64,000 bases of DNA from assembly GCF_900010725.2 (NCBI RefSeq), contig NZ_LR734878.1, positions 176,634 through 240,633 of the forward strand, in the 5' to 3' direction. The stretch is from Planktothrix serta PCC 8927. GTDB lineage: Bacteria; Cyanobacteriota; Cyanobacteriia; Cyanobacteriales; Microcoleaceae. The position numbers and the translations under genes were made by a program. Numbering within the stretch: position 1 is the first letter of the stretch; every line of letters starts with the position of its first letter. The notes under the pieces were generated by a model. It saw only the letters and a list, made by a program, of their open reading frames with translations, was not told the DNA's origin and ran no database searches. Of this stretch, positions 3,403 to 37,095 are shown piece after piece.

Positions 3403-3465
3403 GATATCAACAATTGAGTTCGGGCGGATTTTAGGAATTTTTCTATCAATATCAAAGATTTAATT

Positions 3466-3513
3466 GAACCCGTCTCTACGAAAAATCGGGAATCAAATCG
3501 TAGGGACGGGTTC
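3466..3513. repeat. 15-bp inverted repeat, hairpin after psb34
   Basis: GAACCCGTCTCTACG (3466-3480) faces CGTAGGGACGGGTTC (3499-3513), with one mispair across an 18-bp loop. There is no T-run, so a dispersed palindromic element is more likely than an intrinsic terminator. The 'AACCCG...CGGGTT' ends resemble the hairpins in the 200-bp repeats at 23681-24490. Confidence 0.6.
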
Positions 3514-3544
3514 TGTTAGAAGTGAAGTTGAATTGGGGTTAAAC

Positions 3545-3611
3545 CACAAAGACACAAAGACACAAAGGGGATAAACTTTATTCCTGTCTGTTCCCTGTTC
3601 CCTGTTCCCTG
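3545..3611. repeat. Short tandem repeats: CACAAAGA x3 and TTCCCTG x3
   Basis: An octamer CACAAAGA repeats about three times from 3545, and the heptamer TTCCCTG repeats three times at 3591-3611. These belong to the short tandemly repeated repetitive (STRR) class common in filamentous cyanobacteria. The same heptamer recurs at 7473, 17180 (other strand) and 59748. Confidence 0.85.
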
Positions 3612-3664
3612 CTCGCTGCTATAGAAGAAGATAGTTATAAAGTCTAAGGGCTTAATGATTGACA

Positions 3665-5647
3665 ATGGCGACGAGTAACACTTCTTCAATTCTACTGTCG
3701 GAAACTCATCAGCAAACCTATGATCGTTTACAACAGGCGCTAGGTTTACAACTTCGCCGTCAAGTTTTTATTGCTGTTTGTGATAACTTAAATCTTCGCA
3801 ATCATCTGGCTTTAAAATTACAAACTGATTTATTATTGAAAAATCAGACGGCTTCAACTTTGCAACAAAGTTTAAATTCCCAGATCGCCTCGCCTTTCAT
3901 GAGTTTAAAACTCGATTTAAGCGATCCTAATCCCTTCAGCCAAATTGCTCAATGCTATGCTCAAAATCAATCTGATCTTGACAATAAACCCCTGATCGGA
4001 TTTCAAATTTTAGGGGTAGAACATCTTACCCGCCAACCTCCGGGGGTGCAATGGTCATTTTTACGGTATTTACGAACCTTAGAACATCATCTCGACCGCT
4101 TAGAATTTAGTCTAGTGCTGTGGATTTCTTCTCCTTGGTTATGTTGTATTCAACAATCTGCACCGGAGTTTTGGCGCTGGCGAACTGGGGTATTTCAATG
4201 GATCAGTGATCCAACGCCGAGTGATTTAGAATCAGGGACAATTATTTTAGATTCTACTTCTGTTTCTGAATTCAGCGAAAGCAATAAGACCGATGCTTTA
4301 AAACAACTTCTGGATCAGATTCAACAGCTTCAACAACAGTCTGACTTATCCCCACTGCGCCAAGCCTATCGTCAATTAGCCAATATTTACCGCGATCGCA
4401 TTCTAGCGGGGGAGAATGCAGAACTCAACTACACTCTGGCCATTCAAGCCGATAAAAAAGCCTTAGAAATCATTCCAGAAGCTGAGTTTCTTCTGTCCAA
4501 CTCCCAACAGAAACCCGGTTTCTCTTCCCGCGATAACGATGATTCTATTAATATTTTGAATGACTTAGGAACCTTGTATTGGATGCGATTTCGCCAACGA
4601 TTTCAAGGAAATCCCCCCTCAACTGATGTACTTTCCGATTTAGAACAAAGCATTATTTTCTATCAAAATGCTTTGATGAAAACCGATCCTGAAGCTCAAC
4701 CCCATCTGTATATCAAAATCCAAAAAAACTTAGGAACTGCTTACACCGATTTAGCTACTTTACAAGATCCGAGTCAAAACTTAGAACAAGGGATTATTGC
4801 TTATACAGAAGCCTTATATTACCTTAAGTTAAACCGGACTGAAATTGACCCGGCTCAGATCCAAGATTATGCCACAATTCAAAATAATCTGGGAACGACC
4901 TATTGGAAATTAGCTCAACAAACCCAACCTATTCCTCACCTGAAAGCGGCTATTGCTGCCTATACTCAGGCAATGGAATTTTACACCCCGCAACAGGATG
5001 CCCTGAATTATGCCTTACTACAAACCAACCTAGGAACAGCTTATTGGACACTCAGCCAATATCAGCCTTCAGCAAAATTACTACTCCAGGCTATTCATGC
5101 CTATCATCAAGCCTTAACCTATCGGACAATCGAATCAGCCCCGGTTGCCTGTGCTGCTACCTATAATAACTTGGGCATAGCCTATTGGCATTTGGCTAAC
5201 CACTATCAGAAGTCTGAAATTCGTGCTAAATTTTTGAAAAGGGCAATTGTCGCCTATCAAAAGGCCCTCTCAATTGTTCCCCATCTCAGTCCGACCCAAC
5301 TGACTTTCGACCCCCTAGCGACTCATAACAACCTAGGGCTTACCCACTACCAACTTGCCACAGACTCTAACTTACCGCTTGGCAAAGCCACTCGGATTTC
5401 TCTACTAGGAGCCGCATTAAAACACCATCTTCAAGCTGATATTAACGAGCCTACCCAGCTAGAAAAACAACAGCCTAGCGATGGTGAAATCCCCAACTCA
5501 AAGACCACTGAACATCATCAAACGACTTTGAGTTATTTGCTCAGAACTATTCGCGCCTTCTACAATGAGTCTGGATTACAGGGACAAAATCAGGCTTTAT
5601 CTCAGATTCCCGGTCATCTACTTCCTGAAATATTACGCGCTCTGTAA
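3665..5647 (+). CDS. Large tetratricopeptide-repeat protein of unknown role
   Basis: About 660 aa. I take ATG 3665 as start; an in-frame TTG lies 6 bp earlier. Residues 1-190 resemble a degenerate P-loop-like region (FIAVCDNLNLRNHLALKL, then FQILGVEHLTRQPPGVQWSF and LEFSLVLWISSPWL), but no intact Walker A is visible. From about residue 220 onward there are many TPR units with the recurring LGTAYW / NNLGTTYWKLA / NNLGIAYWHLA pattern and AI.AY..AL helices. This suits a protein-binding scaffold, probably cytoplasmic. It precedes two response regulators by about 100 bp, so a signalling link is possible but unproven. Confidence 0.75.
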   Translation: MATSNTSSILLSETHQQTYDRLQQALGLQLRRQVFIAVCDNLNLRNHLALKLQTDLLLKNQTASTLQQSLNSQIASPFMSLKLDLSDPNPFSQIAQCYAQNQSDLDNKPLIGFQILGVEHLTRQPPGVQWSFLRYLRTLEHHLDRLEFSLVLWISSPWLCCIQQSAPEFWRWRTGVFQWISDPTPSDLESGTIILDSTSVSEFSESNKTDALKQLLDQIQQLQQQSDLSPLRQAYRQLANIYRDRILAGENAELNYTLAIQADKKALEIIPEAEFLLSNSQQKPGFSSRDNDDSINILNDLGTLYWMRFRQRFQGNPPSTDVLSDLEQSIIFYQNALMKTDPEAQPHLYIKIQKNLGTAYTDLATLQDPSQNLEQGIIAYTEALYYLKLNRTEIDPAQIQDYATIQNNLGTTYWKLAQQTQPIPHLKAAIAAYTQAMEFYTPQQDALNYALLQTNLGTAYWTLSQYQPSAKLLLQAIHAYHQALTYRTIESAPVACAATYNNLGIAYWHLANHYQKSEIRAKFLKRAIVAYQKALSIVPHLSPTQLTFDPLATHNNLGLTHYQLATDSNLPLGKATRISLLGAALKHHLQADINEPTQLEKQQPSDGEIPNSKTTEHHQTTLSYLLRTIRAFYNESGLQGQNQALSQIPGHLLPEILRAL

Positions 5648-6452: not shown

Positions 6453-6666
6453 TTAAGGATAACTCTCCTTAATTATTAACAATTCACGGTCGATCACAAT
6501 TGCCTAATTTAAGGGGTAGCTACTGATATTAATGTTGGGAAAGATTGTTTTTTGTGTAACACAATGTAACTAAACGTCGATTTTATGAGGGAAAGTATTA
6601 ACTTATCAGTAACATTAAGATATCTAGTTTATATATTTGCTCACCTTTTCGCTCAATTTTGTAGTC

Positions 6667-7347
6667 ATGGCATCGGCAAAAATTCTTGTAGTTGATGATG
6701 ATCCGGCAATACGGAATTTAGTCAGTCGCTATCTTAGCCAACAGGACTACCAACTGGAGGTTGCACAGGATGGCGACACAGCGTTGAAAGTTTTTGAACA
6801 GTTCAACCCCGATTTAGTTATATTAGATTTGAATTTGCCTGATACAACAGGTTTAGCATTATGCCGAGAAATGCAAAGTCGAACTAATGTTCTCGTTCTC
6901 ATGCTGACCAGTGAACAAAATCCCAAGCAAGGGTTTATAGAAGGTGCCGATGATTTTGTGACAAAACCCTTTGATTTAGAAGTATTAAGTCTGCGGATTA
7001 AAGCTATTTTGAAGCGTCAACGATCAAGGGGTAATTTAGAGCTTCAGAGTTTAATCTATGGGGATTTAGTCATTGATCCGAATCGACGAGAAGTTTATCT
7101 CAAAGGCGAATTAGTAATCTTAAGTGCATTGGAATTTAATCTGCTTTATTGTTTAGCCAGTAAACCCGGTCGAGCTTGGGAACGCAAAGAACTATTACAA
7201 AAAGTTTGGGGTTATCAAGACGAAAGTAGTGAAGGAGTAAGGGTGATTGATGTTCATATTGGTCAGATTCGTAAAAAAATTGAACCTGATCCGAAAAATC
7301 CTTCTTTTATTCAAACCGTCCGCAGTGTAGGTTATCGGTTCGATTGA
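6667..7347 (+). CDS. OmpR/PhoB-family response regulator, copy 2
   Basis: 226 aa from ATG 6667; the frame is open upstream but the start matches that of copy 1. It has the same receiver (LVVDDDPAIRNLVSRYL, VILDLNLPDTTGL, MLTSEQN, VTKPFD) and the same winged-helix domain (RREVYLKGELVILSALEFNL, SVGYRFD). The two proteins agree at most positions and differ chiefly in the DNA-recognition helix region (RRSELLQEVWDYEYEG versus ERKELLQKVWGYQDES). All phosphorylation residues are kept in both. Confidence 0.93.
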   Translation: MASAKILVVDDDPAIRNLVSRYLSQQDYQLEVAQDGDTALKVFEQFNPDLVILDLNLPDTTGLALCREMQSRTNVLVLMLTSEQNPKQGFIEGADDFVTKPFDLEVLSLRIKAILKRQRSRGNLELQSLIYGDLVIDPNRREVYLKGELVILSALEFNLLYCLASKPGRAWERKELLQKVWGYQDESSEGVRVIDVHIGQIRKKIEPDPKNPSFIQTVRSVGYRFD

Positions 7348-7472
7348 TCTCCAAGGAAAGGAAAACGCTTCGGGGCGATCGCATCTCTACATCAGGATTT
7401 TAGATTAAGTTTTATTTAAAAGCTTTTTAACAACTTTTTTAAGCTCCTCTATTCAAGTTTTATTTCTTACTG

Positions 7473-7500
7473 TTCCCTGTTCCCTGTTCCCTGTTCCCTG
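7473..7500. repeat. TTCCCTG heptamer x4
   Basis: Four perfect tandem heptamers in the spacer after the second response regulator. They are followed by TGCGCGTAGCGCTATA (7514-7529), which also occurs at 663-678, and by the palindrome TTCCCATATTATGGGAA near 7542-7558. No gene is seen between 7348 and 7587. Confidence 0.9.
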
Positions 7501-7587
7501 TTCCATCTTCCCTTGCGCGTAGCGCTATAGGGCTTTGACGATTCCCATATTATGGGAACCGCTAAAGCCATTTTTTGGTAAGGGGAG

Positions 7588-7815
7588 TTAAGAAATCTCC
7601 AATCCACACAGGGTTGCCAGATAAACACGAGCCGCTTGACGATAACTGCTCGATGCTTCTGGGGTGTTGCTATTTCCATTCTGCAACAAAAAGAGCGACA
7701 GGGCTGCGGAAAAAACCCGATCTTGATCCCAGTCTGGGTGGGTCTCCAGATAGCCCTGGAGGGACTCGTGCAGCGTTTCAGGAATTTCGGTCAAGATGCT
7801 TACACTTGTGTTCAT
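7588..7815 (-). CDS. DUF2811-family small cyanobacterial protein
   Basis: 75 aa from the ATG at 7813-7815; the open frame extends 11 residues further but the family begins at MNTSVSILTEIPE. The block EIPETLHESLQGYLETHPDW and DQDRVFSAALSLFLLQNG is the DUF2811 signature as I know it. Predicted soluble and mostly helical; no function is established. It is transcribed away from the DnaA-box cluster at 8134-8215. Confidence 0.75.
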   Translation of the reverse strand: MNTSVSILTEIPETLHESLQGYLETHPDWDQDRVFSAALSLFLLQNGNSNTPEASSSYRQAARVYLATLCGLEIS

Positions 7816-7849
7816 GAAACTGCTCTCATCGGTGTTGGTACAGGACAAC

Positions 7850-8640
7850 GCACAACTTCAAGGTTAGGGATGGACTGGGACTTGGGTTCTCCCCTTCCGC
7901 CTAAAATTTGAAATTGGGTCGTCGATTCATTTTGTGCGATCTAGGGGTAGAGTTGTCAATGTTGCAAACTGTTACAACCTGTCACGAAGTTTCTCTTGAG
8001 TCACGAAAGAATCGATATTCGAGCTTCAATTTCTGTTACAAAACTTCATAAATTGCCCTCTCTGGTCATCGTTTCTCCAGATCAGGAGAAAATCCCCAAT
8101 TCCACCAGAAGACCGCAACCTCACCCCTAAACCTGTGGAAAATCCCCCTAAACCTGTGGAAAACATTCTCCTCCCCTGTGGAAAACCTGGGGAATCTGTG
8201 GGGAAAATTTTCCCCAAAGATAAGAATTTTAAAGTTTGTTTGGGTATTTTTAGTATGAATCTATTTGAGATGTCAGATCACAGCTTTTGAGTGCAGCTTA
8301 TTCTCTCCACAATTGATCACCTAAAATCTAAATTTTCATACTCATAACAGTAATTTTGAATTACAATAAAAAAATTATTTATCGGTATAAATTATCAGGT
8401 TTTGATCCCATACTTAAAGGTTAATAAGATTTAAACGTCAGAAAAAGCAGGTTAAGATTAATTAAGGATAATTCCTCAACGCTAACCCTGATTAATCTGG
8501 AAGTTTTTGTCTTTTGGGGATTATGATCAAAAATTTCAGGGATCAACCGAGGATAGATAATCAACCCTCCATACTATATAATAATTGAGTTAGAATCCAA
8601 TAATTGGAAACTTTCATGTCCAGTTTTGTAGGTGAGTAAA
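7850..8640. other. Gene-free 790-bp region, AT-rich in its second half
   Basis: No ORF on either strand looks like a protein gene. The first part holds a run of direct DnaA-box-like elements (separate entry). From 8220 to 8640 the DNA is strongly AT-rich, with A/T runs such as AATAAAAAAATTATTT. The combination of boxes next to an easily melted tract is what an initiation region would look like, but no dnaA or dnaN is in the window. Confidence 0.6.
8134..8215 (-). promoter_or_regulatory. Cluster of DnaA boxes, phased about 21 bp apart
   Basis: The sequence TGTGGAAAA, the complement of the cyanobacterial DnaA box TTTTCCACA, occurs perfectly at 8134-8142, 8155-8163 and 8177-8185. A fourth imperfect copy (TGTGGGGAAAATTTTCCCC) begins at 8197. 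Spacings of 21, 22 and 20 bp put them on the same helix face, and all have the same orientation. This may be part of a chromosomal origin or a DnaA titration/regulatory site. Confidence 0.6.
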
Positions 8641-8882
8641 TAAGAGTCAGCACCCCGCTCTCTTTGTGACGGGGCTTCATGCCTCCAACTTTAGATAGCT
8701 CGTACCCGCCTCAGCCTAACGGCTACGTTTTCTGGATCATAATACCCACGAATGCGACGCTAGTTTGTGGCTCTATTGTTAACAATTAAACAGTTTTACG
8801 AGGGGTAAGACAGTGTTGTTAACGCCAAAAGTTCAGAAAACATTGGCGAAGCGAACATTACCCTAGAAATAGGAGTTATTTC
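8640..8882 (+). ncRNA. Candidate HEARO/omega RNA of the IscB element
   Basis: IscB proteins are encoded just downstream of a structured guide RNA (HEARO RNA in Rfam). The 240 bp before the iscB fragment contain no ORF but several pairable segments, for example CACCCCG...CGGGGCTTCATG near 8650-8682 and CCTCAGCCTAACGG near 8709, ending a few bases from the start codon. A guide segment, if present, would lie near 8620-8640. Boundaries and structure are inferred from position; covariance matching was not possible. Confidence 0.5.
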
Positions 8883-9362
8883 ATGTCTAATTACGTCTTT
8901 GTAATTGATCCGAATAAACAGCCTCAAAACCCAGTACATCCCGCCCAAGCTCGATTGTTATTGAATCAAGGTCAAGCTGCTGTTTATCGCCGTTATCCGT
9001 TTACTATTATCTTAAAGGAGTCAAAACCAGCACCAGAAATACAACAAATAACCCTCAAAATTGACCCCGGTTCAAAAACCAAATTTAACCGCACTCGATT
9101 AAACCTACCTAAAACCCATTGGTTAGATGCAGCTTGTGTTGGAAAACTTGAAACTTTAAAGGTGTTAACCAATAAACCTTTATTGATTCAGGCAACGGGA
9201 CGTGGTACTCGTCAAATGTGTGGTACAGACAAATACGGATTTCCAACCTTCCCATGTTTTTCTTGTGATTATGCTGAAAAACTCTATGCTGAGTCAGTTA
9301 GGATAGGGATCTGTTCTTCAGGTCTTATCGATTCAGATAGGTTAAAGTCAAAGAATCATTGA
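8883..9362 (+). pseudogene. iscB: iscB with internal deletion and lost C-terminus
   Basis: Residues 1-66 are a normal cyanobacterial IscB N-terminus (VFVIDPNKQPQNPVHPAQA and the RuvC-I segment LKIDPGSKT with Asp61). Residue 67 then jumps to KFNRTRLNLPKTHWLDAACVG, the RuvC-III segment that in full proteins of about 430 aa lies some 250 residues later. The arginine-rich bridge, RuvC-II and HNH domain are therefore missing in frame. After KYGFP (residue 121, base 9245) similarity also ends. The join falls at ACCAAA near 9076-9084, compatible with deletion between short repeats. It cannot cut DNA. A clear GGAG ribosome-binding site precedes ATG 8883. Confidence 0.8.
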
Positions 9363-30237: not shown

Positions 30238-32220
30238 TTAATAAAAAACGCCAAAATAATCAGAATATTTGCCATCCCAAACCGATAAACCATTGGGAAA
30301 TACTTTGATTAACTCTTTCCCTTTCTGGGGAATAGTTGCGGTGTATTGCTGCAATTTTTTCCAATCAGACAAAGATAGTTTTTCTTTGGTTTTTAAATGA
30401 TCAATTAGATCGGCTCCATCTTTCCATCTACAGACGGCTGAAAGTTGCTTTTTGTTAATAAAATTAAACTTTTCTGCTACGGATTCAAACTGTAAATCTC
30501 GCCTTAATCCTTGAATCTCGTCTTGACCTGTTTGCTTATTCTTGTGGGCAAAATAATCCTTCAGGAGACTCAGATAATTTTCAGAGTTTAATCCATATTT
30601 TTTAATCAATTCAGAGGAATATTTAGCAAGAGATTGATAAATTTGATCAGGGAAATGATCACAACTCAAGATCAACACTTCTCCGGTTTCTAATAACCCT
30701 TCTCGATTGCATCTTCCTCCTCTCTGAATCAGGGAATCAAGAGGGCATTCTTCAGTTAATACGATTGGGTAATCAATATCAATTCCTGCCTCTACAATCT
30801 GTGTAGAAACACAATTAATATCAGAAGACTTGATCCTATTAATAACCTGTTTGCGGTGCGCTACACACATCCGAGAGGACAAATGAACCCATTGATCCGG
30901 TTGTTCTTGATTGAATATTTCAAAGGCTTCCTGAGCAGTTTTTGTAATATTAACGATAACTAATTTTTTCTGAGGAATGGCACTAATTTCTTCCCAAGAT
31001 AGATTTTTACTCATAAATTTATAGCTACAACGGGACAGCGTTTTAAACTGATTAACTAATTCTTCCTGGGGAATCATGTCGATATGGGGGAGTTGAAACC
31101 CTTTTAGATTAGGTGCTGTAGCAGACATTAATACAACTGAACAGCCATAATTTATAACTAATTCATTTAAGACATTAGCAATAGCTGGTAAGAATTCAGG
31201 GGGTATTGTTTGATATTCATCAATCAGGATGACCCGGTTCATGATTCCGGCTAATTTTCTGCATCTGGAAGCATGATTAGAAAATAGGGATTCAAAGAAT
31301 TGAATCGCAGTAGTGACTATAACCAAGCTATCCCAACGTTGAGAAGATAAACGATAGGCTATTTCTTCTCCGTGTTTAGGGATAAAGTCGGAATGATGCT
31401 CTAATACGGCTTCATCTCCCAAGACATCCCGATAAACTTTGGCTGATTGGTCAAGGATAGATTTGAACGGTGCAACGTACAGAATTCCATCCATATTGTG
31501 ATGGTTACAATGCTCAACTGCAAACTGTAAAGAAGTTAGAGTTTTCCCAATTCCCGTAACACCAATTAACCGATAAATATTTTTACTAGATGTTGTATAC
31601 TGAATCACCAGAGAGCGAAAATTTTCTCTCTCCTTAACAATTTTTGACGGGTTTTGAGAAGGAGGAAAAATTGCGAATTGCAACAAACTAGATTTTGCTT
31701 GAACTCGCTCTTTTTGGGAGTTGTGGGATTTTAGCTCAAATTCCATCGCATCTAATCTGTCACTATCTACTAAAACAGAAAAAAGTATTCTGATTGCTAA
31801 CTCTTTTTGATAAGGATTAAGAGTTATATTAGGTAGATTAGTTAGCTCAGGAAATAACCGCTTTAAGCATTTCTTCCAGTGTTTTTCTGAATGTTCAAAA
31901 AACTCTCTATCGACAGCACTATTTTTTAGCTGGCCATGATGTGACCGAATGATGTAGACCAAGGGGTGGGTATCATCTTCTCCTGTGAGTTCATATACTG
32001 TTCTTGCTCCTTCAGAGGAATGAAAAACTGTACTTCCTCCCTCTAATAAGTATTTTTGCCACGATTTCTTGGCTTTACCTAAATCATGGAGCAGTCCCCC
32101 ATAGTATCCAAGTTCCTTGAGAAATTCTGGGAGACGTTCTCGTGACTTGGCTGCAACTCCCTCTAGGTGTTCAATTAAAAGTTGTTTGATTTCTGTCCCT
32201 TCTATCTTCCTTGCAAACAT
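30238..32220 (-). CDS. cas3: CRISPR-associated helicase/nuclease Cas3 (type I-C)
   Basis: 660 aa, rather short for Cas3. HD nuclease, about residues 1-180: His18 in IEHLEGVAAKS, His45-Asp46 in LLHDLGKAKKSW, His67 in FHSSEGA and the His94-His95 pair in IRSHHGQL. SF2 helicase: Walker A GVTGIGKTLTS, motif II ILIDEYQTIP (Tyr in place of the usual Ile or Val), motif III MSATAP and motif VI QRGGRCNREG. All catalytic parts are visible, so it should be able to unwind and degrade DNA recruited by Cascade. It is divergent from cas5 with only 45 bp between. Confidence 0.93.
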   Translation of the reverse strand: MFARKIEGTEIKQLLIEHLEGVAAKSRERLPEFLKELGYYGGLLHDLGKAKKSWQKYLLEGGSTVFHSSEGARTVYELTGEDDTHPLVYIIRSHHGQLKNSAVDREFFEHSEKHWKKCLKRLFPELTNLPNITLNPYQKELAIRILFSVLVDSDRLDAMEFELKSHNSQKERVQAKSSLLQFAIFPPSQNPSKIVKERENFRSLVIQYTTSSKNIYRLIGVTGIGKTLTSLQFAVEHCNHHNMDGILYVAPFKSILDQSAKVYRDVLGDEAVLEHHSDFIPKHGEEIAYRLSSQRWDSLVIVTTAIQFFESLFSNHASRCRKLAGIMNRVILIDEYQTIPPEFLPAIANVLNELVINYGCSVVLMSATAPNLKGFQLPHIDMIPQEELVNQFKTLSRCSYKFMSKNLSWEEISAIPQKKLVIVNITKTAQEAFEIFNQEQPDQWVHLSSRMCVAHRKQVINRIKSSDINCVSTQIVEAGIDIDYPIVLTEECPLDSLIQRGGRCNREGLLETGEVLILSCDHFPDQIYQSLAKYSSELIKKYGLNSENYLSLLKDYFAHKNKQTGQDEIQGLRRDLQFESVAEKFNFINKKQLSAVCRWKDGADLIDHLKTKEKLSLSDWKKLQQYTATIPQKGKELIKVFPNGLSVWDGKYSDYFGVFY

Positions 32221-32265
32221 TTTTATCCTGTGATAATTTATACTTATTCTATGACAGTATAGAAC
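32221..32265. promoter_or_regulatory. 45-bp divergent promoter region between cas3 and cas5
   Basis: The whole gap is AT-rich and must hold start signals for both directions, or overlap the coding ends. AATTTATACTTATTCTATG and AGTATAGAACATG give possible -10-like boxes on the plus strand. No binding site can be assigned. Confidence 0.4.
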
Positions 32266-32934
32266 ATGAGATTAAAGGTATGGGGTGATTTGGCATTGTT
32301 TACTCGCCCCGAAACGAAAGCAGACCCGTACTCCTATCCAATTATAACGCCCTCGGCAGCAGAGGGAATCCTGAAGGCGATTTTCTGGAAACCGGAAATA
32401 ACCTACAGTATCGAAACGATCACGGTATTGAATCCGATTCGGTATCAGTCCCTATTCCGTAATATGGGACAAAGCAAAATAGCTGTTTCCACTGTCAAAA
32501 CCTGGGCAACCCAAAACCCCTCTGGACGGTATTTGATCAATGAAGATAGATCCCAGCGAAACCATGTTGTTCTAAAAAATGTCGCTTATATCATAGATTT
32601 TAGTTTACACCTAACAACAAAAGCGACAGATCCCATAGATAAATATCATGCTATCTGTGCTAAAAGAATTGAACGAGGGCAATGCTTTAAACAACCTTGT
32701 TTGGGTGTGCGGGAATTCACCGCTAATTTCAGTTTTCCTGATGGGAATGAGCAAATTCATCCTGAACTCTTGGGGACGTTTAACTTCGGACAAATCCTGA
32801 AGAAAATGCACTTTGTTCAAGATTCAAAAGGGAATGTGGAATGGAAAGATAACGAATCTCAGAAGATTGTTAAAGGTCGTGTCTTACCTGAATTCTTTGA
32901 AGCAATTATGCGTGATGGGGTGGTAAGATGTTAG
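32266..32934 (+). CDS. cas5c: Cas5c (Cas5d), crRNA-processing endoribonuclease of type I-C Cascade
   Basis: 222 aa. MRLKVWGDLALFTRPETKAD and SYPIITPSAAEGILKAIFWK are the Cas5 RAMP N-terminus; GVREFTANF is the conserved central strand. In type I-C, which lacks Cas6, this subunit cuts repeat RNA and keeps the 5' handle of the crRNA. The stop overlaps the cas8c start by 7 bp. Confidence 0.93.
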   Translation: MRLKVWGDLALFTRPETKADPYSYPIITPSAAEGILKAIFWKPEITYSIETITVLNPIRYQSLFRNMGQSKIAVSTVKTWATQNPSGRYLINEDRSQRNHVVLKNVAYIIDFSLHLTTKATDPIDKYHAICAKRIERGQCFKQPCLGVREFTANFSFPDGNEQIHPELLGTFNFGQILKKMHFVQDSKGNVEWKDNESQKIVKGRVLPEFFEAIMRDGVVRC

Positions 32935-34622
32935 CCGAACTTTATCAGTTTTCAAAACAGTTTCAACTTCCTCCCGTGGGTTATTCAACGAATACTGCTG
33001 TTTATCGTATTGACTTGGAAACAAGCTTAATTTCCCTCCTGCAAACAAAAACAATTAAAACCGTGAAAAAAGAAGATCGGGTTTTCTTTAAACCGGGTCA
33101 AAAATTGATTCTTCCTAATCTCAATCGTAATAGTGTAGCTCCTCTATTAATTGCTGATACGGGAGAATATTTGTTTGGCATTGGGTCAAGTAAAGATACT
33201 AATAAAAAAGTATCCCGCTATTTAGAATTACTGCAAGAATGCTGGCAAATGACATCAGATCCGGTTCTGGAAAAGGTTCTAAAATTCATTCGGGAATCTA
33301 GCCAAAAATCTATTATTTCTCAGCTTGAAACCCTGGGAAATAAGCCCCAAGCAGGCAAGAAATATGGGGAGTCGGAACGGTTTGTTTTCTATTATCAAAA
33401 CCCGGAAACAGAACAAGCTGAACTTGTAACCAATCGTCCTTTAATTCAAAAGTTTTGGGGTAAATATTTTCTATCCAAACAAACGATAAAAGCGGGTAAG
33501 TGCATTATTACAGGTGAAGAAACGCAAGTTTTAACCCATATCCTACCCGGCAAACTTAAAGGCATTCCAGGGGGTCAATCAACGGGTTGTGCTATTTCCA
33601 GTTTTGATAAGTCAGCTTATCAAAGTTGGGGATGGGATAACTGTCAGAATGCACCCATTGGGATTAATACCGCATTAGGGTTTTTAGGTGGTGTGGAGAT
33701 GCTGCAAAGTAATCCCAGACATTACCATAAGTTAGGGAATCAGATGTTTGTTTTTTGGGGAGATCAGAACCAAGAAGGCATCAATCCTGAGTTTTGGCAA
33801 GATGTTACAGCCTGCCGTTTAAAGGGGTTAATTCAAGGCATCAACACGGGAAAAAGTTTAGATACCCGCCATTATTCCAAAAAGTTCTATCTGGGTATTC
33901 TCAAAGGAAATAAGGGGCGGGTTGCTATCAATAGAATTGACTCGATTTCTTCTGATGCAATTGCCGATAATGTCGAACATTTTTGTCAACTCCAACAGTG
34001 GTTTGATAACTGGACAAAACCAATCTGGGTTTTCCGTAAGGCTGCATTTTTTGATATCAATAAAGAACATACGGAAGTTATTGACACCGCCCTGATTCAA
34101 TTTGCATTATTAGGGAAAGAACTCCCTCAAATTTATGCAAAGAAAATGATTGATAGAATCTATGCGGAACAGGATACTTTTGAATCTTTTGACCGGGCAA
34201 AAGCTTTATTTTTCTATACCCAACATCCCAATATGAACGACCCCAATGATCTAATTGCTTATCAGTTAGGACGGATAACTTTCCTAATGCACATAGCACA
34301 AATGAAAGCCCGAAAACAGACCAAGGAAGACACTAATGTTACCCGTTCTTTGAAAACACTTTCTACAACTCCTTCTCAAGTTTTCGGACGACTTTATCAA
34401 GGGTGTTATGCTCATCACCTTTTGGAAGAAGAAACTAAGTACATTAAACTTCTATTAGATGAGGAGTTCCGAACTATTTCTCCTGAAGACTTACCCGACA
34501 ATTTTACCCTCCGTCAGCAATCTTTATTTTTTGTGGGATTTGCTAAAAAACGGGCTGAATATTTCCTACCAAAATCCGGCAAAAACAAAGATCAAGATTT
34601 TAACAATAACGAGGAAGAATAG
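32928..34622 (+). CDS. cas8c: Cas8c (Csd1), large subunit of type I-C Cascade
   Basis: 564 aa. MLAELYQFSKQFQLPPVGYS is the standard Csd1 start; KSTGCAISSFDKSAYQSWGW-like block (here QSTGCAISSFDKSAYQSWGW), NTALGFLGGVEML and TTPSQVFGRLYQGCYAHHL are family landmarks. It recognises the PAM and recruits Cas3. Normal length. cas7c starts 3 bp after its stop. Confidence 0.92.
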   Translation: MLAELYQFSKQFQLPPVGYSTNTAVYRIDLETSLISLLQTKTIKTVKKEDRVFFKPGQKLILPNLNRNSVAPLLIADTGEYLFGIGSSKDTNKKVSRYLELLQECWQMTSDPVLEKVLKFIRESSQKSIISQLETLGNKPQAGKKYGESERFVFYYQNPETEQAELVTNRPLIQKFWGKYFLSKQTIKAGKCIITGEETQVLTHILPGKLKGIPGGQSTGCAISSFDKSAYQSWGWDNCQNAPIGINTALGFLGGVEMLQSNPRHYHKLGNQMFVFWGDQNQEGINPEFWQDVTACRLKGLIQGINTGKSLDTRHYSKKFYLGILKGNKGRVAINRIDSISSDAIADNVEHFCQLQQWFDNWTKPIWVFRKAAFFDINKEHTEVIDTALIQFALLGKELPQIYAKKMIDRIYAEQDTFESFDRAKALFFYTQHPNMNDPNDLIAYQLGRITFLMHIAQMKARKQTKEDTNVTRSLKTLSTTPSQVFGRLYQGCYAHHLLEEETKYIKLLLDEEFRTISPEDLPDNFTLRQQSLFFVGFAKKRAEYFLPKSGKNKDQDFNNNEEE

Positions 34623-34625
34623 ATT

Positions 34626-35468
34626 ATGTTACACTTTGATCCTTCTAAAAAACACGATGCGATTCTGTTAGTTGATTGTCTGGACGGTAATCCTAACGGC
34701 GACCCAGATGCCGGAAATCAACCCCGAATTGACCCAGAAACCCGACATGGTTTAATTAGTGATGCTTGTATGAAACGTAAGGTTCGCAACTATGTTGTAT
34801 TCACGAAAAAGGGAGAGGTAAATTATAAAATTTTTGTCGAAGAAGGTAGCGTCTTGAATGATAAGATTGAGAAAGCTTATTCAGAGTTGAAAATTGATGT
34901 TAAGAAAAAATCAACGCCTGAAAAACAGAAAAAAGCTCGAAACTGGATGATTGAAAACTTTTATGATATTCGGATGTTTGGGGCGGTGCTTAATACAGGT
35001 TTAAATGCGGGTCAAGTTTGGGGGCCATTACAAATTTCTTGGGGGCGCTCTTATGATCCAGTTTTGCCTATTTCTGCTACTATTACCCGGTGTGCGGCGA
35101 CGGAAGCTAAGGAAGGAAAGGATAACAAAACTATGGGACGGAAAGAGTTAATTCCCTATGGATTGTTTAAGATTGAAATTCATTATAACCCTGGTTTGGG
35201 TGATAAGGTTTCCAGTGATGATCTCAAATTGTTCTGGGAATCATTATTAAATTGTTGGGAATTTGATCGCAGTTCCTCCCGTTCTTCAATGAATTGTCGT
35301 GGCTTGTTTATATTCACCCACGATAGCAAATGGGGAAATGTTGCTTCTCATAAGTTGTTTGATTTGCTGTCGGTTAAATCCATTGCTCCCACACCTCGAA
35401 GTATTAATGATTACGAGATTAATATTGATGGGGATGTGCCGGACGGTGTAACTTTGTGGAATAATTAG
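34626..35468 (+). CDS. cas7c: Cas7c (Csd2), backbone subunit of type I-C Cascade
   Basis: 280 aa. ILLVDCLDGNPNGDPDAGNQ and PRIDPETRHGLISDACMKRK form the Cas7/DevR-like N-terminus; DIRMFGAVLNTGLNAGQVWG is the thumb region; RSSSRSSMNCRGLFIFTHDS is typical of Csd2. It coats the spacer part of crRNA. It is the last cas gene here: cas4, cas1 and cas2, which normally follow, are absent. A CRISPR repeat begins 2 bp after its stop. The segment 35388-35420 (residues 255-265) resembles the first CRISPR spacer. Confidence 0.93.
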   Translation: MLHFDPSKKHDAILLVDCLDGNPNGDPDAGNQPRIDPETRHGLISDACMKRKVRNYVVFTKKGEVNYKIFVEEGSVLNDKIEKAYSELKIDVKKKSTPEKQKKARNWMIENFYDIRMFGAVLNTGLNAGQVWGPLQISWGRSYDPVLPISATITRCAATEAKEGKDNKTMGRKELIPYGLFKIEIHYNPGLGDKVSSDDLKLFWESLLNCWEFDRSSSRSSMNCRGLFIFTHDSKWGNVASHKLFDLLSVKSIAPTPRSINDYEINIDGDVPDGVTLWNN

Positions 35469-35574
35469 CTAACAATCCTCAGCAATGGGGATTGCGAATT
35501 GAAACCCACACTGCGAAGCATTAACAATTACGAGATTCTAACAATCTTCAGCAATGGGGATTGAAAATTGAAAC
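35469..35574 (+). CRISPR. Two-repeat mini-array in the 3' UTR of the cas operon
   Basis: Repeat A (35469-35505) carries GCG instead of GAG in its 3' half; repeat B (35538-35574) has two substitutions (CTTCAG, GAAAATTG). The 32-nt spacer between them (35506-35537) aligns end to end with cas7c 35389-35420 (27 of 32 identical). The mini-array lies between cas7c and the terminator at 35603, so it should be on the cas5-cas8-cas7 transcript. Confidence 0.85.
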
Positions 35575-35602
35575 AACCCTTAGCTGTTTTTGGGTGTTTA
35601 TG

Positions 35603-35641
35603 CCAGAACCCTTATTCTGTAGGAGTTCTGGTATTTTTTTA
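35603..35641 (+). terminator. Terminator closing the cas operon and mini-array
   Basis: CCAGAAC (35603-35609) pairs with GTTCTGG (35625-35631); a run of seven T (35634-35640) follows after TA. It lies ahead of the promoter of the main array, so the two units look transcriptionally separate. Confidence 0.7.
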
Positions 35642-35805
35642 AAAAATAGGTTGGCGCAATTTGTGTAAGGCTTAATCTGAAAGGGATTCAAGGATTTTTT
35701 TTGAATACAAACTTGACAAATAATGGGGAGATTTGCTATTATTAACTTAGGTTGGCGGAATTGCACCTTGAAAATTAAATATCACAGGGGTTCCAGCAGC
35801 CTGCT
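35642..35805 (+). promoter_or_regulatory. CRISPR leader with promoter
   Basis: AT-rich leader before the main array. TTGACA (35713-35718) and TATTAT (35737-35742), 18 bp apart, predict transcription towards the repeats starting about 35750. A motif TAGGTTGGCG occurs twice (about 35647 and 35749, 102 bp apart) and may be an integration-anchoring or regulatory element. Confidence 0.65.
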
Positions 35806-37095
35806 CTAACAATCCTCAGCAATGGGGATTGAGAATTGAAACTTGATCTCTCTGTACCCGTTATCTTCAGCTATAAGCTAACAATCCTCAGCAATGGGGA
35901 TTGAGAATTGAAACAGGATATTATGATGCTTTAGAGGCTCTACTGGAAGCTAACAATCCTCAGCAATGGGGATTGAGAATTGAAACTGCCTTTAGCCAAT
36001 GACCGCTTTACTGGGAAAAGCTAACAATCCTCAGCAATGGGGATTGAGAATTGAAACTCATATTGCCTCACGCCCGTAACTAGCGGCGACCCCTAACAAT
36101 CCTCAGCAATGGGGATTGAGAATTGAAACTTTACCGAGCCCGACGTAAAGGGTATTAGGGGGTGTGTTGACTAACAATCCTCAGCAATGGGGATTGAGAA
36201 TTGAAACAACATAGTTAGAAACTCCCTCTACAACTTGTTTACTAACAATCCTCAGCAATGGGGATTGAGAATTGAAACAAGTTCGACTCTATTGAACAGA
36301 AATATCAGTGGCACTAACAATCCTCAGCAATGGGGATTGAGAATTGAAACAACTTAGGATTCAATCTAGCCTGAGTTGCCAGATTAGAACTAACAATCCT
36401 CAGCAATGGGGATTGAGAATTGAAACGAATTTTATCTCAAAGATAGATGTGATCAAAAGATACTAACAATCCTCAGCAATGGGGATTGAGAATTGAAACC
36501 AATATCAACAGGAAGAACGTCAACAGAAACAGACTAACAATCCTCAGCAATGGGGATTGAGAATTGAAACCCTCTAAACGCCCTAACCCAACAACTCCCA
36601 TGATCTAACAATCCTCAGCAATGGGGATTGAGAATTGAAACACCAAGTACAATTGATTAGCTTACGGGAGGCTTTAAACTAACAATCCTCAGCAATGGGG
36701 ATTGAGAATTGAAACCAGGTGCTTTGATGTCCTTTCGTGGAGGGTGTCAGCTAACAATCCTCAGCAATGGGGATTGAGAATTGAAACAAGTTTTTAACAG
36801 GAAGATCTAACTCCTTAATCCGCTAACAATCCTCAGCAATGGGGATTGAGAATTGAAACGATTGAGAATTAAAATAATTCGGTTGACCCCATCATCCTCT
36901 AAAATAGTAGGGGTATAACAATCCTCAGCAATGGGGATTGCGAATTGAAACCAGTTTACGTCAACAACCCCGTCAACTTCTACAACCTAACAATCCTCAG
37001 TAATGGGGATTGCGAATTGAAACCAGTTTACGTCAACAACCCCGTCAACTTCTACAACCTAACAATCCTCAGTAATGGGGATTGCGAATTGAAAT
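35806..37095 (+). CRISPR. Main type I-C CRISPR array: 18 repeats, 17 spacers
   Basis: Repeats are 37 nt, from CTAACAATCCTCAGCAATGG to GATTGAGAATTGAAAC, with an internal stem CAATCC/GGATTG. Starts: 35806, 35878, 35950, 36021, 36093, 36171, 36242, 36314, 36390, 36463, 36534, 36605, 36679, 36751, 36823, 36915, 36987, 37059. Spacers are 34-41 nt except the fifteenth (about 55 nt), which begins with a damaged half-repeat. The last two spacers (36952-36986, 37024-37058) are identical. The last three repeats carry GCG for GAG, and the final one ends GAAAT, which marks the leader-distal end. Confidence 0.97.

Follow-up and report, generated by a model that had tools for sequence, protein, structure and literature searches.

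Cas-regulating RNAs (CreR) have been reported in type I-B, I-E and V-A systems (PMC13131331, PMC12737573). They are outlined there as crRNA-like mini-CRISPRs with partial complementarity to their own cas locus that exert feedback on Cas expression (PMC13131331, PMC12948488, PMC12737573), and their reported pairing partner is the cas promoter (PMC13131331, PMC12737573). The antitoxin guide of CreTA, CreA, is described as acting through a seed of 11 bp, and in Haloarcula repression without interference is described for spacers no longer than 24 bp (PMC10989794); in CreTA, psiR1 is given as more diverged than psiR2 (PMC9458426). Viruses also carry mini-arrays, which are linked to inter-virus conflict, with spacers that mostly target related viruses and repeats identical to those of the host (PMC11656645, PMC6858448). 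Among the titles and abstract openings listed in searches of the open-licence literature, there was no report of cas7-derived mini-array spacers following a type I-C cas7.

Here we analysed a 64,000-nucleotide stretch of the Planktothrix serta PCC 8927 genome (the window), which contains a CRISPR unit of two repeats and one spacer (35469-35574) directly after the stop codon of cas7c. Like CreR, this is a mini-CRISPR unit partially complementary to its own cas locus (27/32 to cas7), with CRISPR-like repeats that lie outside the array and next to cas genes in the window, in a sister species (G009) and in a phage. Unlike CreR, the unit sits at the 3' end of the operon without an evident promoter of its own, the system is type I-C, any regulation is putative, and the match falls in the coding sequence of cas7. 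Across 30238-35468, including the cas3-cas5c intergenic stretch, the best match of the window spacer was in the coding end of cas7 rather than in a putative cas promoter. The ectopic repeats, the short seed match and Cascade as the putative repressor recall the CreTA antitoxin guides, as does the more degenerate first repeat of G009 (11 versus 4 differences from the array repeat), whereas in the window the first and second repeats have 1 and 2 differences, and the target is cas7. The phage unit is comparable to viral mini-arrays, which are one- or two-spacer arrays carried by viruses, but the spacers here are cas7-derived, host genomes carry the unit too and the window spacer has no viral match. 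The window spacer also matches its own genome, as do self-targeting spacers of ordinary arrays, although the unit stands outside the array, in the cas7 3' UTR, and recurs in two species and a phage.

Profile searches identified a type I-C effector in the window, with cas3 on the minus strand and cas5c, cas8c and cas7c (Table 1); Cas5c is the expected crRNA-processing nuclease of type I-C. No cas1, cas2 or cas4 was seen by eye, without a family search, among nearby open reading frames of at least 90 amino acids, and Cas1 matches were found on three other contigs. The cas7 stop codon is followed by repeat R1, the 32-nt spacer, repeat R2, a terminator-like hairpin, a leader and the 18-repeat array, all on a 372-kb contig of a bacterial genome; the unit beside cas7 is thus not virus-borne. 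The final two spacers of the main array (36860-37058) are identical copies, and the 55-nt spacer that precedes this pair starts with a degenerate repeat piece.

Table 1. Features of the type I-C locus in the window, with coordinates counted from its first base.
Feature	Position	Strand	Details
cas3 (I-C)	30238..32220	-	divergent to cas5c; TIGR01587 and TIGR01596 over cut-off
cas5c	32266..32934	+	TIGR01876 over cut-off
cas8c	32928..34622	+	TIGR01863 E 4e-48, under its curated cut-off
cas7c, last gene of the effector operon	34626..35468	+	TIGR02589 over cut-off
Target of the G009 mini-array spacer, cas7 codons 250-260	35373..35405	-	27/33, spacer bases 1-20 exact
Target of the window mini-array spacer, cas7 codons 255-265	35389..35420	+	27/32, flank CTC
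Mini-array repeat R1	35469..35505	+	1 difference/37 from main-array repeat; alone folds to array-type hairpin, -12.2 kcal/mol
Mini-array spacer, 32 nt, cas7-derived	35506..35537	+	sequence match to cas7
Mini-array repeat R2	35538..35574	+	2 differences/37 from main-array repeat; alone folds to array-type hairpin, -9.4 kcal/mol
Terminator-like hairpin and T-run after the mini-array	35600..35640	+	predicted by folding
Promoter-like site in the main-array leader	35713..35742	+	TTGACA-18-TATTAT, 11/12 matches
Main CRISPR array	35806..37095	+	18 repeats, 17 spacers

The first-pass annotation had placed a mini-CRISPR in the cas7 3' flank, with a 32-nt spacer at 35506-35537 between two repeats, and these coordinates were confirmed. 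It had described the repeats as degenerate; both are present on the flanks of the spacer, but they are only lightly so. In the best predicted fold of the whole 180-nt stretch, R1 pairs with R2. The terminator that the annotation had put at 35603 corresponds to a predicted hairpin (35600-35634) of 13 pairs, with one bulge and a loop of 8, followed by seven T; its arms are kept in four Planktothrix, but a strict terminator scan called nothing after the mini-array. The promoter proposed for the main array at 35713 was recovered as a promoter-like site, which in a consensus scan was the only strong one in 35300-35850 and lies downstream of the mini-array. A 9/12 site at 35499, inside the unit, was rejected as a promoter for the mini-array, as 2.0 such sites are expected from shuffles. 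Judged by the same kind of scan, the mini-array does not have the leader and promoter directly upstream that mark a canonical array.

The window spacer aligns in the sense orientation and over its full length with cas7c, with 27 of 32 bases identical. The next best site in 30238-35468 reached 19/32, and a score of 27 was not attained by any of 60 shuffles over this span or by any of 300 shuffled spacers over five cas operons; a blastn search of the 330-nt flank against the operon gave an E value of 3.4e-5. Translated in the cas7 frame, the spacer reads PTLRSINNYEI, compared with PTPRSINDYEI in cas7. The alignment, the four differing codons (two of them synonymous), the match of the last R1 base to cas7 and the end of similarity at both repeats had all been pointed out in the first-pass annotation and were borne out. 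Two of its mismatches to its own cas7, those at positions 7 and 8, are in the seed. The flanking PAMs are CTC for the window, ATT for G009, ACT for the first phage spacer (phage S1) and AAA for the second Snowella spacer (Snowella S2); the type I-C PAM is TTC-like, and only the CTC of the window resembles it.

With one genome per species, 4 of 10 genus genomes, including the window genome, carry this cas7. G009 has a mini-array at the same position with a different spacer, the reverse complement of which matches window cas7 (27/33, with the first 20 spacer bases exact; 0/300 shuffles) and reads VQAVSPTPRSI in the cas7 frame, leaving the conserved P257 and R258 without change. Against the cas7 of G009 itself, this spacer scores 19/33, with its first 12 bases exact (1/60 shuffles over the operon, 0/500 over cas7). 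The 20-mer common to the G009 spacer and window cas7 was found in 2 of 61 family genomes, in only these two places, with up to one mismatch allowed. As the G009 spacer covers 35373-35405 on the minus strand and the window spacer 35389-35420 on the plus strand, the two guides overlap on cas7 from opposite strands. A single repeat follows cas7 in a third species (G003) and none in a fourth (G001); the unit is therefore reduced or absent in two of the four Planktothrix, and so dispensable. Repeat-like blast matches in G003 and G001 lay inside cas3 and were taken as chance. The cas5c of G009 is split near codon 25 (locus L085, about 6538-8963, minus strand) by an insert encoding a group II intron reverse transcriptase/maturase (TIGR04416 over cut-off).

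A Cas7 with 68-69% identity to window Cas7 is encoded on two viral contigs. One of them, a phage contig of 59 kb, has portal, scaffold and major head genes next to cas3, cas5c, cas8c and cas7c, with cas8c under its profile cut-off, as in the window. A leader and an array with six spacers between its seven repeats are present downstream of cas3; this count leaves out a degenerate eighth repeat beyond a short gap. Directly after the phage cas7, we saw by eye three degenerate repeats and two short spacers. S1 (25 nt) matches the cas7 of the phage itself at 21/25 (0/300 shuffles), compared with 16-17 for host cas7 genes; its target is mid-gene, about 530 nt away, the amino acids RQRYFDI are kept with three synonymous base changes, and the mismatches at 2, 4 and 8 are all in the seed. 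Among five cas7 genes, the window spacer and phage S1 each match their own best. S2, taken as a 20-mer, matches the 3' stretch of G003 cas7 at 17/20 (1/300 shuffles over five operons, 0/300 over five cas7 genes), and at 16, 18 and 23 nt its score was reached by 20, 5 and 12 of 300 shuffles. Against the phage's own cas7 it scores 14/20 (77/500 shuffles) and, as a 23-mer against the phage's own operon, it is at chance level (36/60). The right border of S2 is uncertain and its support depends on that border, so we did not count it as cas7-derived. A type I-C effector beside head genes was observed on phage contigs L084/L107 (IMGVR_UViG_3300034094_000170) and L083, with all four cas genes on L084; IMGVR_UViG_3300034094_000170 also has its own leader and a seven-repeat array, and by eye this leader resembles that of Planktothrix. 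At a distance from the cas genes, phage contig L145 (about 56.8 kb) carries repeat-like hairpins, two or three in tandem, that end in GAGAATTGAAAT or GAGAATTGAAAC.

In Snowella, a more distant cyanobacterium, cas7 is followed by a tract of degenerate repeats with five spacers. S2 of this tract is antisense to the 3' end of its own cas7 (23/36; 4/60 shuffles over the operon, 4/500 over cas7 and 0/500 over the last 150 nt of cas7), in an upstream part that adjoins the G009 and window targets. The other four spacers did not resemble Snowella cas7, and S1 and S2 searched against the Planktothrix and phage operons only were at chance level. The tract itself (locus L095, about 3448-3870) has about six degenerate repeats with differing stems, mostly self-complementary by eye, and a constant end of GAGGATTGAAAC or GAGGGTTGAAAC. 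We surveyed 20 loci from the order, of which three are Planktothrix, together with a few named records and six loci from a class search. None of the 24 type I-C loci outside Planktothrix, Snowella and the phage had a two-repeat unit apart from the array in the few hundred bases after cas7, as judged by eye. In L096 and L099, two further cyanobacterial loci, cas7 is directly followed, again by eye, by a single repeat, and the sequence downstream of it has no above-chance match to cas7. In G009, G003, G189, G183 and the phage, the sequence beyond the final or sole repeat had total identity at chance. At locus L098 (G281), a solitary repeat-like end lies on the cas3 strand just upstream of the cas3 start, at about 2724 in the reverse-complement reading.

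We then compared the units with ordinary arrays. Three of four mini-unit spacers (window, G009 and phage S1) match a cas7 at 82-84% identity (0/300 shuffles each), compared with none of 47 array spacers (17 from the window, 16 from G009, 7 from G001, 1 from G003 and 6 from the phage) that match cas genes at 80% or more, an identity line set after the data were seen. The first 41 of these include 40 distinct spacers, as two of the 17 from the window are identical. The best array-spacer match to cas genes was that of window spacer 2 (24/35, 1/300 shuffles), and the first spacer of the phage array reached 23/35 (5/300 shuffles), both below 70% identity. When the 41 array spacers were searched against the loci collected, 11 self matches at 80% or more were found and nothing else, and the window array spacers had no protospacer in the phage collection. 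The unit spacers are 32 (window), 33 (G009) and 25 (phage S1) nt long, compared with 34-55 nt for the 47 array spacers.

The targeted end of cas7 is variable. Compared with three relatives, window cas7 diverges most at codons 250-256 (79% of residues, against a mean of 10%); these codons fall wholly inside the G009 target and overlap the window target by two codons. This stretch varies across the family too, so it may coevolve with the guides. Two residues encoded by the window spacer, L257 and N262, occur in none of 62 distinct Cas7c proteins, in which residue 257 is P in 47, A in 12, S in 2 and T in 1, and residue 262 is D in 60 and E in 2. Likewise, phage S1 encodes W where 62/62 Cas7 have R. 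A fresh copy of a working foreign cas7 should encode residues that Cas7 tolerates. Both spacers depart from this pattern and have thus either drifted without coding constraint or changed since their capture.

Searches for a donor returned little. At up to three mismatches, 388 order genomes, an even sample of a larger group, contained the window spacer only in the unit itself, and the 10 genus genomes contained the G009 spacer only in its own unit. Viral contigs contained neither the 24-nt 3' core of the window spacer, with variable positions left free, nor the 20-mer common to window cas7 and the G009 spacer. Neither the phage nor the plasmid collection gave a match to the window spacer at E values up to 10; an equally good match to an unrelated phage gene, which the first-pass annotation had named as grounds for abandoning its reading, was thus not found in these collections, and cas7 was the only match. 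All Cas7 relatives in these collections (81/81 plasmid and 4/4 phage records) had less than 60% identity.

These observations lead us to a tentative reading, to which we assign a probability of roughly 0.38: by analogy with CreR, the unit may be a cas-regulating mini-CRISPR in the cas7 3' UTR, aimed at the cas7 coding sequence. The mini-array would be transcribed together with the cas mRNA, and Cas5c would excise the guide from it. Cascade loaded with this guide would bind cas7 DNA by partial pairing, without cleavage by Cas3, and slow cas7 transcription; Cas7 is the Cascade subunit needed in most copies. Guide supply would track cas expression, closing a negative feedback loop that would ease when immune crRNAs compete for Cascade, and the spacer mismatches would be a compromise that avoids self-cleavage. 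A wider and slightly more doubtful proposal is that host and phage type I-C systems both keep a self-guide copied from cas7 in the cas7 3' UTR, such that each round of cas transcription would make Cascade subunits along with the guide that throttles cas7, with cas7 and guide coevolving at a fast-changing stretch. To our knowledge, the balance of type I-C expression has been little studied, and this locus offers a compact test case. If the reading is right, it would represent a second design of CRISPR autoregulation, in which the coding sequence is targeted from the operon's own mRNA and a guide cut from the effector mRNA, without a separate promoter, acts on the gene of the most-used subunit.

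The regulatory reading, also put forward in the first-pass annotation, gains from the recurrence of cas7-derived units in another Planktothrix and in the phage and from the absence of cas matches at 80% or more among the 47 array spacers, so that cas7-derived spacers are confined to the place after cas7; Snowella S2 lends weaker support. By analogy, the 12 exact bases between the G009 spacer and its own cas7 are comparable to the CreA seed, and the shortness of the unit spacers relative to every array spacer may parallel the Haloarcula precedent. The position of the most diverged cas7 stretch, within the G009 target and touching that of the window, would also fit. The same reading has to contend with the seed mismatches of the window spacer and phage S1, with mostly non-canonical PAMs and with the loss or collapse of the unit in two of four Planktothrix and the absence, by eye, of a two-repeat unit apart from the array in 24 other type I-C loci. 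The G009 spacer fits window cas7 (27/33) better than its own (19/33). At 32 and 33 nt, the window and G009 spacers are only slightly short, and longer than the repress-only lengths of Haloarcula, and R1 is predicted to pair with R2 in the best fold of the whole unit.

Much of this pattern could also arise if the units were non-functional copies of the cas7 3' end, made locally by off-leader integration or template switching and drifting without function. Local copying would account for the short distance, within about 50-130 nt upstream of the repeats, at which the sources of the window, G009 and Snowella S2 spacers lie, and for the presence of both orientations; L257, N262 and the W of phage S1 are as expected of non-coding drift, and the losses in Planktothrix fit as well. 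We rate this origin as somewhat less likely than regulation. Against it, stems and handles are intact in the window repeats, which differ less from the array repeat (1 and 2 of 37) than the spacer does from cas7 (5/32); hosts and phage have the unit in the same position although its spacers change; phage S1 comes from mid-gene; and the matches of the window and G009 spacers extend over the whole interval between the repeats. It is less probable by far that only the repeats matter, either because cutting by Cas5c trims or destabilizes the cas mRNA or because the repeats sequester Cas5c. The repeats do abut the cas7 stop codon ahead of a conserved terminator-like hairpin, and G003, L096 and L099 keep single repeats after cas7, but this leaves unexplained the clear cas7 origin of three of the four spacers.

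Alternatively, the spacers may be guides against cas7 of rival type I-C loci in relatives or phages, with the self mismatches preventing autoimmunity, which we consider improbable. The existence of a phage contig that pairs head genes with a type I-C effector and array fits such a rival. The G009 spacer has 20 exact bases to window cas7 compared with 12 to its own, and this 20-mer, at up to one mismatch, is confined to 2 of 61 family genomes; its target includes the part of window cas7 that has diverged most, which would separate self from rival. Immune spacers should, however, be acquired into the main array at its leader end, and 0/47 array spacers match cas genes at 80% or more, and the window spacer and phage S1 fit their own cas7 best. 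Moreover, the window spacer breaks residues conserved in functional Cas7, and no donor was found in the order genomes, phage and plasmid collections or viral contigs searched. The origin from a diverged, foreign cas7, one of two readings offered in the first-pass annotation, is weakened for the window spacer, because L257 and N262 occur in 0/62 Cas7c and no nearer donor was found, even as the better fit of G009 to a foreign cas7 and the type I-C phage speak for it. With cas7-derived guides in bacteria and in a phage that has the same system type, it can be asked directly whether such guides act in control, in conflict between rival systems or not at all.

Solitary type I-C-like repeats were also observed elsewhere in the genus, on smaller contigs of G002 (contigs 3, 2 and 4; L013, L018 and L022) and of G001 (contigs 4 and 2). 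Those of L013 and L018 are followed, by eye, by terminator-like hairpins. The solitary repeats of both genomes resemble those described, in outline, as RNA anti-CRISPRs (PMC10651486).
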